Shown here: positions 2,370-5,808 of the stretch, in pieces | How the letters are laid out: the number at the start of each line of letters is the position of its first letter | Numbering within the stretch: position 1 is the stretch's first letter | DNA from: Deltaproteobacteria bacterium GWA2_38_16 | Lineage (GTDB): Bacteria > Bdellovibrionota > JACOXK01 > 2-02-FULL-40-11 | DNA: 5,808 bases | Direction of reading: 5' to 3' | Assembly: GCA_001797335.1 (NCBI GenBank) | Contig: MGPE01000012.1 | Location: 1 to 5,808, forward strand | Program-made: the position numbers and the translations under genes | The notes under the pieces: model-generated | Databases searched by the model: none | Seen by the model: only the letters and a program-made list of their open reading frames with translations | What the model was told of the DNA's origin: nothing

Positions 2370-3668
2370 ATGGAAAAAACTAATTCAGAAATAACGGACT
2401 TTGAAAAAAGAGAGCGTCTTAATTTTATCGCAAAAAATGTGATTGATTGTTTCAATTTTGTACCTGATAAAGAAAGCTTGCTTTTTATTACCGACGGAAA
2501 GGTTGTCGAACAAAATCCGATGTTTGTTCAAGCCATTAACGACGAATTGGAACAAAGGACCAATAAGGATCAGCATACGCGAGGTAATTTTGAACGCATT
2601 ATAGTTAAGGCTTCGCCTAAATCCGCTGAGCCCTTTGGTGAGAAAATCGGCGAAAAAATGAAAGATCGCCCCGTTCTTATTGTAACTTCAATGTCGCGTT
2701 CTCACTCACAAGAAACTGGCGCGGCCCTTAGAGCTGATATCCGCGATAAAACGGTATTTGATGAGATATTGTCGTCTGAGGAATTATTACAAACAGCTAG
2801 CAAGGGCTGGTCCGGATTCACACCGGAACGTTTAGCCTCGTTGGGAGGAAAAATGCCTGACTCAACCTATGAAAAAATGAAAGCTTTCGCTAAAGTCCGG
2901 CGGATTAGGTTAATTTCTATAACCAAAGGGCATAACCCCTATGAGATATTAACTAAGGGTGCGGTTGAGGAATCAGTTGAAGTGCTTCGGCGGCGGGCAG
3001 AAATTGTGAGTAAACTGATGAGAGATGTAACAAAAGTTCACATAACCTCTGGTTTAGGAACTGACCTGTGGCTTAGTCCTCGTACTGATAAAACAGAGGT
3101 CGAAGATGGTTTAGTTGATAAGCCAGGTAAGCTCAGCAATTTTCCCATAGGAGAATGGTCGACTAGCCCGTTTATTGAGGGAGCTAATGGCCTCATGGTA
3201 GTGGATGGGCCGATCGGAGGAAATCATAACTTAGATATGATAGAAGATTATGGACCAATTACCCTTGTAGTGAAAGAGGGAAATATTACTCACGTCAATA
3301 ATATTCCACTCAAAGAAAATACAGGTAATTCATTAGCTGAATCAGTTAAATCATATTTAGGCAGCGGTAATAACGCTGAAGGTCATGCCTTCCGAATCGC
3401 GGAACTAGGTATCGGTATTAATGGCAAGGCCTGCCAAAGTAAAGCACCGAAGGATATTGGCTCATCAGAGGGTGAGAAAATATACGGAACGTGTCATATA
3501 GCGTTTGGCAGTAATGGCTCGTTTGGTGTTGAACCGGGTGATCCGAATTTAAATGCTGTGCCAATTCATTGCGATATGGTACTAATGAATGGCCTAAATG
3601 TTGATTGTGAGCGTAAAGATGGTACAAATTTTAGTCTAATTCACGAAAGTGAACCGCAAGGTTATTAA
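2370..3668 (+). CDS. M29-family (AmpS/AmpT-like) metallo-aminopeptidase
   Basis: A 432-residue protein, close to the roughly 410-residue length usual for clan M29 aminopeptidases, which remove N-terminal residues from peptides using two metal ions in the cytoplasm. The N-terminal half (about 35-230) carries family-like patterns: SLLFITD, VLIVTSMSRSHSQETGAAL, where the SHS..T..A part recalls the usual SHT motif, and HITSGLGTDLWL. The C-terminal catalytic half shows NFPIGEWSTSPFIEG with Glu262, RIAELGIGIN with Glu345, KIYGTCHIAFG with His376, and PIHCDMVL with His400 and Asp402. These five match the metal-binding Glu, Glu, His, His and Asp of the family, so the enzyme is probably active. There is no signal peptide or membrane segment. 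The start is fixed by a good Shine-Dalgarno, and an intrinsic terminator follows 10 bases after the stop. Substrate preference cannot be read from the sequence. Confidence 0.88.
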   Translation: MEKTNSEITDFEKRERLNFIAKNVIDCFNFVPDKESLLFITDGKVVEQNPMFVQAINDELEQRTNKDQHTRGNFERIIVKASPKSAEPFGEKIGEKMKDRPVLIVTSMSRSHSQETGAALRADIRDKTVFDEILSSEELLQTASKGWSGFTPERLASLGGKMPDSTYEKMKAFAKVRRIRLISITKGHNPYEILTKGAVEESVEVLRRRAEIVSKLMRDVTKVHITSGLGTDLWLSPRTDKTEVEDGLVDKPGKLSNFPIGEWSTSPFIEGANGLMVVDGPIGGNHNLDMIEDYGPITLVVKEGNITHVNNIPLKENTGNSLAESVKSYLGSGNNAEGHAFRIAELGIGINGKACQSKAPKDIGSSEGEKIYGTCHIAFGSNGSFGVEPGDPNLNAVPIHCDMVLMNGLNVDCERKDGTNFSLIHESEPQGY

Positions 3669-3678
3669 AAAATAATAG

Positions 3679-3714
3679 ATGGGGTATGGTATTTATCATA
3701 TCCCATTTTTGTTT
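3679..3714 (+). terminator. Rho-independent terminator after the M29 peptidase
   Basis: ATGGGGTATG (3679-3688) pairs with CATATCCCAT (3697-3706) over 10 bp with one G-U wobble and an 8-base loop. A T-rich tail follows (TTTTGTTT, 3707-3714). It separates the left transcription unit from the ATP-binding-domain gene. Confidence 0.82.
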
Positions 3715-3746: not shown

Positions 3747-4754
3747 ATGTCTGATTTTGTTTTAAAATTTGATAAATTATCAAAACACGATGTTCAGCTA
3801 GCTGGAGGCAAGGGAGCAAGCCTGGGCGAGATGAGCCAGGCCAAGATTCCCGTGCCACCTGGATTTGTGGTGCTAGCGAGTGCCTTTGATCGCTTTCTGC
3901 ACGAGACGGATTTAGAGGTGGATGTTGAGGCACAGCTTAAAAAGGTGAACCATAGGGATATTAATTCAGTGGAAAAGTATTCAGTGGTAATTCGTGATCT
4001 TATCCACGATTCCAGGATGCCCCAAGACTTGCAACGCGAAATTATGAGCGCGTATGCAAGTCTAGCCAAGAGCCAAGGGCAAATAGCGAATAGTATAAAA
4101 AGCCATAAGCTATTAGCCATTAGCCACGAGCTATTTTACGTAGCCGTGCGTTCCAGCGCTACAGCTGAAGACTCCAGCCAAGCTTCTTGGGCCGGGGAGT
4201 TGGAGAGTTACCTGAACACTACGGAAAAGAATCTGCTGGGTCGCGTGAAGCAGTGCTGGAGTTCACTCTTCACCCCGCGCGCCATATTTTACCGTCATGA
4301 GAAAAAATTGCACAAGGCTAAGGTTTCAGTGGCGGTGGTGGTGCAAACTATGATCCAATCAGAAATATCCGGTATAGCTTTCACAGTGCACCCCGTTACT
4401 AAAGATAAGAATCAAATGATTATTGAGGCGGGCTTTGGTTTGGGCGAAGCCATCGTCTCCGGACAAATCACGCCCGATTCTTATGTGGTAGGAAAAAAGA
4501 AACTTGATCTGATGGACATAAACGTATCAGAGCAGGGCCGGGCTTTATATGGCAAGCCCGGCGGCGGCAACGCGTGGAAAAATTTAACCAAAGCCCAGGG
4601 CGGCAAACAAAAGCTCACGGGTAGGCAAATACAAGAGCTGGCTAAAATCTGCCTCACGATAGAAAAGCATTATGGTTTCCCTTGCGATATTGAATGGGCT
4701 TGGAGCAAGGGCAAATTCTACATCACCCAATCCCGCCCCATCACGACATTATAG
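3747..4754 (+). CDS. Standalone PEP synthase/PPDK-type ATP-binding domain protein
   Basis: A 335-residue protein covering the pyruvate phosphate dikinase N-terminal (ATP-grasp-like) domain from end to end. Motifs in order are GGKGASLGEM (20-29), PVPPGFVV (35-42), VAVRSSATAEDSSQASWAGE (132-151), SEISGIAFTVHPVT (205-218), EAGFGLGEAIVSGQITPDSY (227-246) and CDIEWAWSKGKFYITQSRP (313-331). In full-length PEP synthase (about 790 residues) this domain binds ATP and phosphorylates a histidine in the following mobile domain. Here the protein ends at QSRPITTL, the natural domain boundary, with no histidine or PEP/pyruvate domain after it. It must therefore act with a phosphohistidine partner encoded elsewhere, have another role, or be a remnant. 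The reading frame is intact and the key motifs look sound, which argues against decay. Residues about 106-130 are encoded by a seven-base repeat and look like an insertion before the VAVRSSATAED motif. Confidence 0.85.
   Translation: MSDFVLKFDKLSKHDVQLAGGKGASLGEMSQAKIPVPPGFVVLASAFDRFLHETDLEVDVEAQLKKVNHRDINSVEKYSVVIRDLIHDSRMPQDLQREIMSAYASLAKSQGQIANSIKSHKLLAISHELFYVAVRSSATAEDSSQASWAGELESYLNTTEKNLLGRVKQCWSSLFTPRAIFYRHEKKLHKAKVSVAVVVQTMIQSEISGIAFTVHPVTKDKNQMIIEAGFGLGEAIVSGQITPDSYVVGKKKLDLMDINVSEQGRALYGKPGGGNAWKNLTKAQGGKQKLTGRQIQELAKICLTIEKHYGFPCDIEWAWSKGKFYITQSRPITTL
4064..4135 (+). repeat. Degenerate heptanucleotide tandem repeat (AGCYATT-like) inside the PPDK_N gene
   Basis: Ten seven-base units in two runs separated by two extra bases at 4099-4100. 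The second run (4101-4135) is cleanest: AGCCATA, AGCTATT, AGCCATT, AGCCACG, AGCTATT. The first run (4064-4098) begins with AGCCAAG twice and then degenerates through GGCAAAT, AGCGAAT and AGTATAA. Total length is 72 bases, a multiple of three, so the frame is kept. It encodes roughly residues 106-130, including SHKLLAISHELF. This is unlike the usual short loop before the nucleotide-binding motif. Confidence 0.65.
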
Positions 4755-4774: not shown

Positions 4775-4802
4775 TTGACGAATTCGCGCGAATTGGTAGA
4801 AT
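4775..4802 (+). promoter_or_regulatory. Promoter of the ArsR-type gene
   Basis: TTGACG (4775-4780, five of six) and TAGAAT (4797-4802, five of six) are 16 bases apart, giving a predicted start near 4809 and a leader of about 13 bases. No well-placed Shine-Dalgarno lies before the ATG at 4822; AGGA at 4803-4806 is too far upstream. The spacer holds a palindromic operator candidate. Confidence 0.65.
4781..4794. promoter_or_regulatory. Operator candidate: 14-bp perfect palindrome AATTCGCGCGAATT
   Basis: The palindrome begins directly after the -35 box and ends two bases before the -10 box of the ArsR-type gene, the classic place for a repressor to block RNA polymerase. Its 12-bp core ATTCGCGCGAAT recurs at the centre of the 42-bp palindrome behind the same gene. 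Autorepression by the ArsR-type protein is the natural inference. Confidence 0.65.
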
Positions 4803-4821
4803 AGGATATATACCCAATACT

Positions 4822-5100
4822 ATGCGCTATCAAGACCTAGTTAAGCTATTTCGCGTATTGGCTGGTCGTAAGCGGCTGGAGATTTTAAGCCTACTGGCTG
4901 ATGGCCGCGAGCGGTCAGTCGGCAGCATAGCTGAGGCTATTAAGCTTTCCCTAAAGTCAACATCTAAGCACTTACTTTTACTAGCCCAAGTAGATTTACT
5001 TGAGTATCGTCGACAAAAGAATGTTGTTTGGTACCGTGCGGTGGAGCATGAGCCGAGTTTTCTGCGACCAGTTATGCACAAAGTTCGTTCTGCGCGCTAG
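4822..5100 (+). CDS. ArsR-family winged-helix transcriptional regulator, cysteine-free
   Basis: A 92-residue protein, normal for small ArsR/SmtB regulators, which bind DNA as dimers and usually repress. The ATG at 4822 places MRYQDLVKLFRVLAGRKRLEILSLL at the family's typical N-terminus; the open frame runs further upstream but only into the previous gene and the promoter. Visible parts are the RLEILSLLADG helix (18-28), the helix-turn-helix at about 33-58 (VGSIAEAI, then LKSTSKHLLLLAQVDLLE) and a beta wing (61-73, YRRQKNVVWYRA). There is no cysteine, so the CXC metal site of ArsR/CadC sensors and thiol switches are absent. His76 and His86 near the C-terminus faintly recall the alpha-5 zinc site of CzrA/SmtB but the spacing does not fit well. 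The ligand is unknown. The gene is flanked by two palindromes with a common core, which are probably its binding sites. Confidence 0.85.
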   Translation: MRYQDLVKLFRVLAGRKRLEILSLLADGRERSVGSIAEAIKLSLKSTSKHLLLLAQVDLLEYRRQKNVVWYRAVEHEPSFLRPVMHKVRSAR

Positions 5101-5101
5101 C

Positions 5102-5143
5102 TTTGTTATTCACCCTATTCGCGCGAATAGGGTGAATAACAAA
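5102..5143. repeat. 42-bp perfect palindrome between the ArsR-type and Rrf2 genes
   Basis: Every base from 5102 to 5143 pairs symmetrically about 5122/5123, giving two 19-base arms (5102-5120 and 5125-5143) around a GCGC centre. Symmetry breaks at 5101/5144. The central ATTCGCGCGAAT (5117-5128) equals the core in the ArsR-type promoter. As RNA it would form a 19-bp hairpin directly after the arsR-type stop, but no T run follows, so it is not a standard intrinsic terminator. An extended regulator site, a transcript-end hairpin, or both are possible. Confidence 0.8.
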
Positions 5144-5175: not shown

Positions 5176-5198
5176 ACTCCTACCTATTTGGTAGGAGT
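5176..5198. promoter_or_regulatory. Operator candidate: 9-bp inverted repeat in the Rrf2 gene promoter
   Basis: ACTCCTACC (5176-5184) and GGTAGGAGT (5190-5198) are perfect inverted copies around TATTT. The repeat ends 5 bases before the -10 box and covers the place where a -35 element would lie, like IscR sites in iscR promoters. It is probably bound by the Rrf2-type protein encoded just downstream. It is unrelated in sequence to the ATTCGCGCGAAT sites. Confidence 0.65.
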
Positions 5199-5203
5199 TA
5201 GGG

Positions 5204-5215
5204 TATACTGGGAAT
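5204..5215 (+). promoter_or_regulatory. -10 element of the Rrf2 gene, probably leaderless
   Basis: TATACT (5204-5209, five of six) ends 6 bases before the ATG at 5216, so transcription should start at or next to the start codon. No Shine-Dalgarno is visible. No recognisable -35 is found at 16-18 bases; the inverted repeat lies there instead. The same 6-base distance is seen at the PPDK_N gene. Confidence 0.55.
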
Positions 5216-5647
5216 ATGCTGAAATTAAGCTCCGGTGGTGATTACGGCCTGATGTTTTTGGCTTACCTGGCAAGCATACCGCAAGGCAGCTATGCCAGTC
5301 TGACCCAAGTGGCGCAGCAACAACACTTGCCAGTTAAGTACTTAGAACATGTGGCCAAGTCGCTTACGCGAGCTGGCGTTATCAAGAGTCGGCACGGCAA
5401 GAAAGGCGGCTATACTCTAGCTGTCAGTCCGACCAAACTAAGGCTGACCCAAGTGCTTAGGGCACTGGAGGAGGGAGTGGAACCGATACGTTGCACGCAT
5501 AATGGTCGGTGCTGTGAGCGTCGGGTAGCTTGTGAGCTTAAAACAGGTTATCAAAAAGTGCACGTCAAACTGTATGAGCTCTTAGCTGGTTATTCCTTGG
5601 CTGACTTGTTGCCCACAGTCAAAGGTATTAAATGCCCTAAAAATTAA
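5216..5647 (+). CDS. Rrf2/IscR-family transcriptional regulator with putative Fe-S cysteines
   Basis: A 143-residue protein, the standard length for Rrf2 regulators. The N-terminus LKLSSGGDYGLMFLAYLA is the family's first helix. The helix-turn-helix spans about 28-56 (SLTQVAQQQHLPVKYLEHVAKSL). The wing RHGKKGGYTLAV (59-70) has the typical GGY. The dimer helix then leads to RCTHNGRCCERRVAC, with Cys93, Cys99, Cys100 and Cys106. This matches the three-cysteine cluster-binding loop of IscR and NsrR (C-X5-C-X5-6-C), with one extra adjacent cysteine. A cluster sensing iron, oxygen, superoxide or nitric oxide is therefore likely. A superoxide dismutase gene starts 24 bases after the stop, which supports a redox role and co-transcription. 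It is probably autoregulated through the inverted repeat at 5176-5198. IscR, NsrR and RsrR subtypes cannot be separated from sequence alone. Confidence 0.88.
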   Translation: MLKLSSGGDYGLMFLAYLASIPQGSYASLTQVAQQQHLPVKYLEHVAKSLTRAGVIKSRHGKKGGYTLAVSPTKLRLTQVLRALEEGVEPIRCTHNGRCCERRVACELKTGYQKVHVKLYELLAGYSLADLLPTVKGIKCPKN

Positions 5648-5671
5648 TTTTTACTATTAACTAACTAAATC

Positions 5672-5808
5672 ATGTTCGAACTTCCTAAATTACCTTATTC
5701 GTTTGACGCCCTGGAGCCGTATGTGGATGCCAAGACTATGGAGATACACCACGCTAAACATCATGCTGCTTATGTAGCTAAGCTTAACGAGGCGCTAGCG
5801 CAATCGCC
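5672..5808 (+). CDS. Fe/Mn superoxide dismutase, N-terminal part (cut by window end)
   Basis: The first 45 residues begin [20 protein letters not shown], the standard iron/manganese superoxide dismutase N-terminus, followed by [21 protein letters not shown]. His26 is the first metal ligand, His30-His31 are the conserved pair, and Tyr34 is the active-site gateway tyrosine. The enzyme converts superoxide to oxygen and hydrogen peroxide. The other metal ligands and the residues that separate iron from manganese types lie beyond the window, so metal use cannot be stated. No signal peptide is present, indicating a cytoplasmic enzyme. No Shine-Dalgarno is visible in the 24-base gap after the Rrf2 gene; translation is probably from the shared transcript. 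Confidence 0.92.

Follow-up and report, generated by a model that had tools for sequence, protein, structure and literature searches.

Why would a gene for a small regulator be bracketed by two palindromes with the same core? The question is raised by a 5808-bp stretch of DNA (the window), which is the entire contig C12 of a 2.0-Mb genome bin (G000). The preliminary description had placed an ArsR-type gene between a palindrome that fills the spacer of its own promoter and a perfect 42-bp palindrome, centred on ATTCGCGCGAAT, just behind it. This layout proved correct in each of its coordinates. Positions 4782-4793 and 5117-5128 carry one and the same core, ATTCGCGCGAAT. The first palindrome, AATTCGCGCGAATT, takes up 14 of the 16 bases between the -35 box (TTGACG, 4775-4780) and the -10 box (TAGAAT, 4797-4802), while the second starts one base (a C) after the TAG stop codon (5098-5100) and leaves 72 bases to the ATG of the following Rrf2 gene at 5216. 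We refer to the two palindromes as site 1 and site 2 (Table 1).

Table 1. Features of the regulator gene and the unit that follows it, in positions of the window
Feature	Positions	Strand	Remarks
Sigma-70-type promoter of the regulator gene	4775-4802	+	TTGACG, 16-bp spacer, TAGAAT; 10 of 12 consensus positions
Site 1, proposed autorepression operator	4781-4794		AATTCGCGCGAATT, a perfect palindrome of 14 bp between the -35 and -10 boxes
Site 1 plus -10 box stretch	4782-4803		22 bp; 19 of 22 positions match 5117-5138 (ATTCGCGCGAAT-n-GG-nn-GAATA)
ArsR/SmtB-type winged-helix regulator	4822-5100	+	92 aa, no cysteine
Site 2, proposed second operator	5102-5143		Perfect 42-bp palindrome TTTGTTATTCACCCTATTCGCGCGAATAGGGTGAATAACAAA; ATTC-N5-ATTC-N4-GAAT-N5-GAAT
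Separate inverted repeat	5176-5198		ACTCCTACC-TATTT-GGTAGGAGT; a -10-like box, TATACT (5204-5209), follows closely
Rrf2-family regulator	5216-5647	+	C-x5-CC-x5-C, Fe-S type cysteines
Fe/Mn superoxide dismutase gene, start only	5672-5808	+	Cut by the contig end

The protein encoded between the two sites scored above the cut-offs of Pfam HTH_5 (PF01022, 30.5 bits; cut-off 22) and NCBIfam HTH_metalloreg (NF033788, 58.9; cut-off 55). Its AlphaFold model (pLDDT 86.5) matched 54 PDB entries at E<=0.001, and those listed, which include NolR, HlyU, CzrA, SmtB, BigR and SqrR, are mostly named ArsR-family proteins. By sequence, the best solved relatives were SmtB (the best PDB match, 1.5e-8), HlyU and CzrA. 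Judged by profile and predicted structure, the gene product is a genuine ArsR/SmtB-fold protein, and the ArsR-type identity first assigned to it stands. Two subfamily assignments were rejected, SdpR (score 42.9 against a cut-off of 100) and BigR (NCBIfam score 30.6 against a cut-off of 155). As the protein has no cysteine, the known cysteine metal or persulfide sensor sites (alpha3, alpha3N, alpha5 or persulfide cysteines) are absent. The alignment with SmtB stops at EHE under DHH, near the first alpha-5 ligands, and the C-terminal helix is unaligned. Many ArsR-fold regulators have no metal or thiol sensor site; its absence here rules out the known cysteine sensors, not the ArsR fold family.

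A palindromic operator within the regulator's own promoter is a mark of ArsR/SmtB systems, and the 14-bp palindrome in the spacer qualifies by its sequence as a putative one. Autorepression through a spacer operator would fit both the geometry of the promoter and the habits of the ArsR family. The right half of site 1 reads GAAT-N5-GAAT, as in site 2; the left reads ATTG-N4-ATTC, at the -35 box, and this arm fits site 2 only when shifted by one base. Site 1 looks as if it were a compromise between promoter and operator. We propose that a dimer of the 92-aa ArsR-type protein would bind ATTCGCGCGAAT-type palindromes and repress its own gene. Because the palindrome occupies the spacer and the outer GAATA overlaps the -10 box, a dimer on site 1 would cover the spacer and touch both the -35 and -10 boxes, which would exclude RNA polymerase.

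Could the shared core be a coincidence? The preliminary description had argued that a 12-bp match at two sites was unlikely to arise by chance. As stated, that argument was rejected: both cores are palindromic, so the match has just six free positions and a probability computed on 12 bases is overstated. For two given palindromes at the base composition of the window, a shared palindromic core has a P of about 1.7e-4. The conclusion itself was upheld by dinucleotide shuffling, since none of 400 shuffles contained two palindromes of at least 12 bp with one core. The shuffles held a mean of 1.96 palindromes of at least 12 bp, the longest being 24 bp; the window holds three perfect palindromes of at least 12 bp, two of them with the common core. 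The likeness also extends beyond the core. GG and then GAATA follow at equal offset in both sites, with the GAATA of site 1 overlapping the -10 box, and 7 of the 10 bp to the right of the core match, a level reached by 0.5% of the 10-mers in the window. Both palindromes and their common core are real and non-random.

A core that recurs throughout the genome would mean little, and in this respect the locus at first appears exceptional: G000 has two copies of the core, both of them here. However, the contig probably does not belong to G000: it is likely to be mis-binned (or recently acquired), because its tetranucleotide profile, codon use and gene relatives do not fit the bin. The tetranucleotide profile correlates with that of the bin at r 0.44, compared with 0.79-0.92 for equal-length pieces of six other contigs. 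Codon preferences also diverge, as with Gly GGA at 0.20 here and 0.46 in the bin. The contig's proteins had no orthologues in the bin's own family: a 432-aa protein was found in none of 38 relatives of the bin, and a PEP-synthase-like protein gave weak fragments at best in family members. The other contigs of the bin, among those listed, are 58-334 kb long. Thus, the count of core copies in the bin is an unfair background, and the bin's relatives are uninformative on the conservation of both sites. Across 58 related genomes the core occurred 15 times, about one copy per ten megabases, and the loci fetched around these copies gave no regulator match. The case shows that a mis-binned contig can make a whole-genome motif count misleading. 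The contig's gene content (split PEP-synthase-like proteins, an MtxX-like protein, Rrf2 and Sod) presumably resembles that of a candidate-phyla bacterium. The PEP-synthase-like domains are divided over two genes, with the ATP-binding domain alone at 3747-4754 and the gene at 2-1447 ending in a PEP-utiliser mobile domain. Between them lie an MtxX-like gene (1458-2297) and an M29-peptidase-like gene (2370-3668).

Relatives of the regulator were distant. Matches were found in 12 of 59 genomes, G000 included, and the others were just 25-37% identical. Among sequenced species there were seven distant matches, the best of which, at 46%, was in an actinobacterial MAG with different neighbours. A search of viral contigs and plasmids found no relatives of the regulator, and no orthologue with conserved synteny was present in the related genomes, sequenced species, viral contigs or plasmids searched. 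In several distant ArsR-type homologues (for example, L044, L046 and L009), inverted repeats directly precede the start codon. Behind the gene, the inverted repeats of these same homologues are short only (arms of at most 7 bp), and site 2 is therefore the unusual part of the layout.

What, then, might site 2 be? It does not lie over any recognisable promoter, and at 42 bp it exceeds the length needed by one ArsR dimer. One option in the preliminary description was an RNA hairpin. A long hairpin here would terminate the regulator mRNA or protect its 3' end, and the core in common with site 1 would then be a coincidence. We consider this rather unlikely. A strong fold is possible, with 19 base pairs closed by a loop of 4 bases (-28.7 kcal/mol, z -8.4), and the position one base past the stop codon would suit such an element. 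A loose terminator scan also includes site 2, with the tail TGAGTATTTT, which was accepted through the tolerant window alone. However, no U-tract adjoins the stem: the 3' arm ends in AACAAA and the T run comes 6 bases further on. At its base the stem is A-T (U-A rich) and not G+C-rich. A canonical intrinsic terminator, with a G+C-rich stem and an immediate U-tract, was rejected on these grounds; an ordinary terminator-like site does exist on the same contig, behind another gene (3677-3708), where the T-run lies directly on the stem. A search of Rfam gave no match. An RNA element also leaves the common core and the GAATA unexplained. In both sites the symmetry reaches the exact centre, as expected for DNA bound by a dimer and unneeded for an RNA loop.

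We also judge it unlikely that site 2 belongs to a family of REP- or MITE-like palindromes, mobile or dispersed in the true source genome, and that site 1 in the promoter is a degenerate relative of it. The pattern ATTC-N5-ATTC-N4-GAAT-N5-GAAT had 48 matches in viral contigs. In all but one of these, L062, perfect symmetry was short or absent, and tblastn matches resembling the regulator in the 48 loci were insignificant only. L062, an unrelated viral contig, has a perfect 48-bp palindrome in a coding frame, with the arm ATTCATCCTATTC compared to ATTCACCCTATTC at site 2, and such an arm can therefore occur elsewhere as a free-standing palindrome. Yet the likeness comes down to 4 of the 5 free positions in the arm, with a chance of about 1.6%, and may itself be accidental, the centre of the L062 palindrome differs, and the half-arm TATTCACCCTATTCGCG had no match in viral contigs. 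CCTATTC-N4-GAATAGG had 77 matches, with strong symmetry in L062 alone; the match in L103 has the same GCGC centre and lies within an integrase-like gene. The MAG contains no second copy of site 2, which would speak against a mobile repeat if the contig came from there, but the contig probably belongs to another genome. L062 contains two perfect palindromes in coding frames, of 48 bp (6127-6174) and 50 bp (4216-4265). The literature on palindromic repeats in candidate phyla and on ArsR double operators yielded nothing specific.

Perfect symmetry over 42 bp is rare, with seven other distinct palindromes of at least 28 bp in 1.4 Mb of fetched loci, and this rarity could point to an assembly or replication artefact, such as template-switch correction of an imperfect palindrome, or to the operator of another protein. 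We regard both as very improbable. An amplification chimera would leave long inverted flanks, none of which are present at site 2, and the common core and GAATA tie site 2 to site 1.

We favour, with somewhat better than balanced confidence, the reading that the regulator is an autorepressor with an operator in its promoter and a second, more symmetric site behind its gene. This two-operator reading is drawn from the observed sequence symmetry, 22-bp similarity, promoter geometry and protein fold; from these we infer that the regulator binds both sites, that binding affects transcription and that an inducer acts on it. Site 2 would be a further site for the same ArsR-type protein, and it is best read as an operator or looping partner. 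It would most likely serve either as a high-affinity auxiliary operator, which could loop to site 1, or as a site that acts from upstream on the Rrf2-sod unit. The centres of the two sites are 335 bp apart, which at 10.5 bp corresponds to 31.9 turns; they therefore lie on the same face of the helix and a loop is sterically allowed, a spacing that would arise by chance roughly one time in four. That two cognate operators in helical phase bracket the 279-bp gene, forming a repression loop and also marking the upstream boundary of the Rrf2-superoxide dismutase unit, is a more ambitious proposal that we think doubtful. The separate inverted repeat upstream of the Rrf2 start is probably the operator of the Rrf2 protein itself. 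A perfect 16-bp palindrome, TAAAAATTAATTTTTA, lies across the Rrf2 stop codon at 5638-5653, upstream of the sod start.

If the two-operator reading is right, it would provide a DNA recognition motif for a regulator that has none of the usual metal or thiol sensor residues. The locus would also show, in compact form, how an operator can lie behind the gene of a regulator and possibly tie that regulator to an oxidative-stress unit.

How does this arrangement compare with known systems? SmtB-type operators are built from 12-2-12 repeats, of which one or two lie close to the start site (PMC8790569). The regulator resembles the SmtB/ArsR repressors with such operators (SmtB, ZiaR and AzuR) in fold, in sequence family and in having a putative palindromic operator at or over the promoter. 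It differs from them in lacking cysteine and in an alignment that stops short of most of the SmtB alpha-5 zinc ligands; the proposed operator here has a GC-rich centre, and a second palindrome lies behind the regulator gene. The persulfide sensors SqrR, BigR and YgaV have the same ATTC/GAAT half-site and the same fold, with BigR and SqrR among our structure matches. SqrR-type sites read ATTC-N8-GAAT (PMC9774250), whereas the spacing here is ATTC-N4-GAAT and the protein lacks the sensing cysteines. In addition to repressing its own gene at the polymerase site, YgaV binds at a distance upstream of katG (PMC9774250). The ArsR-like autorepressor Rv2034 of M. tuberculosis recognises an 8-4-8 palindrome, and the authors of that study suggest activation from sites further away from the gene (PMC3338718). 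The likeness to our locus would lie in autorepression via a palindrome that overlies the promoter and has a 4-bp spacer, and in further sites from which the protein activates; however, the Rv2034 half-site is CCGTAAGT, and the portions of that paper drawn on here report no second palindrome directly behind the gene (PMC3338718). Rv2034 and YgaV are precedents for one ArsR-type protein that represses its own promoter and acts elsewhere from distant sites. Set beside these systems, the locus most likely combines an ordinary ArsR-type autorepression mechanism with an unusual layout, in which a putative second operator lies behind the gene.
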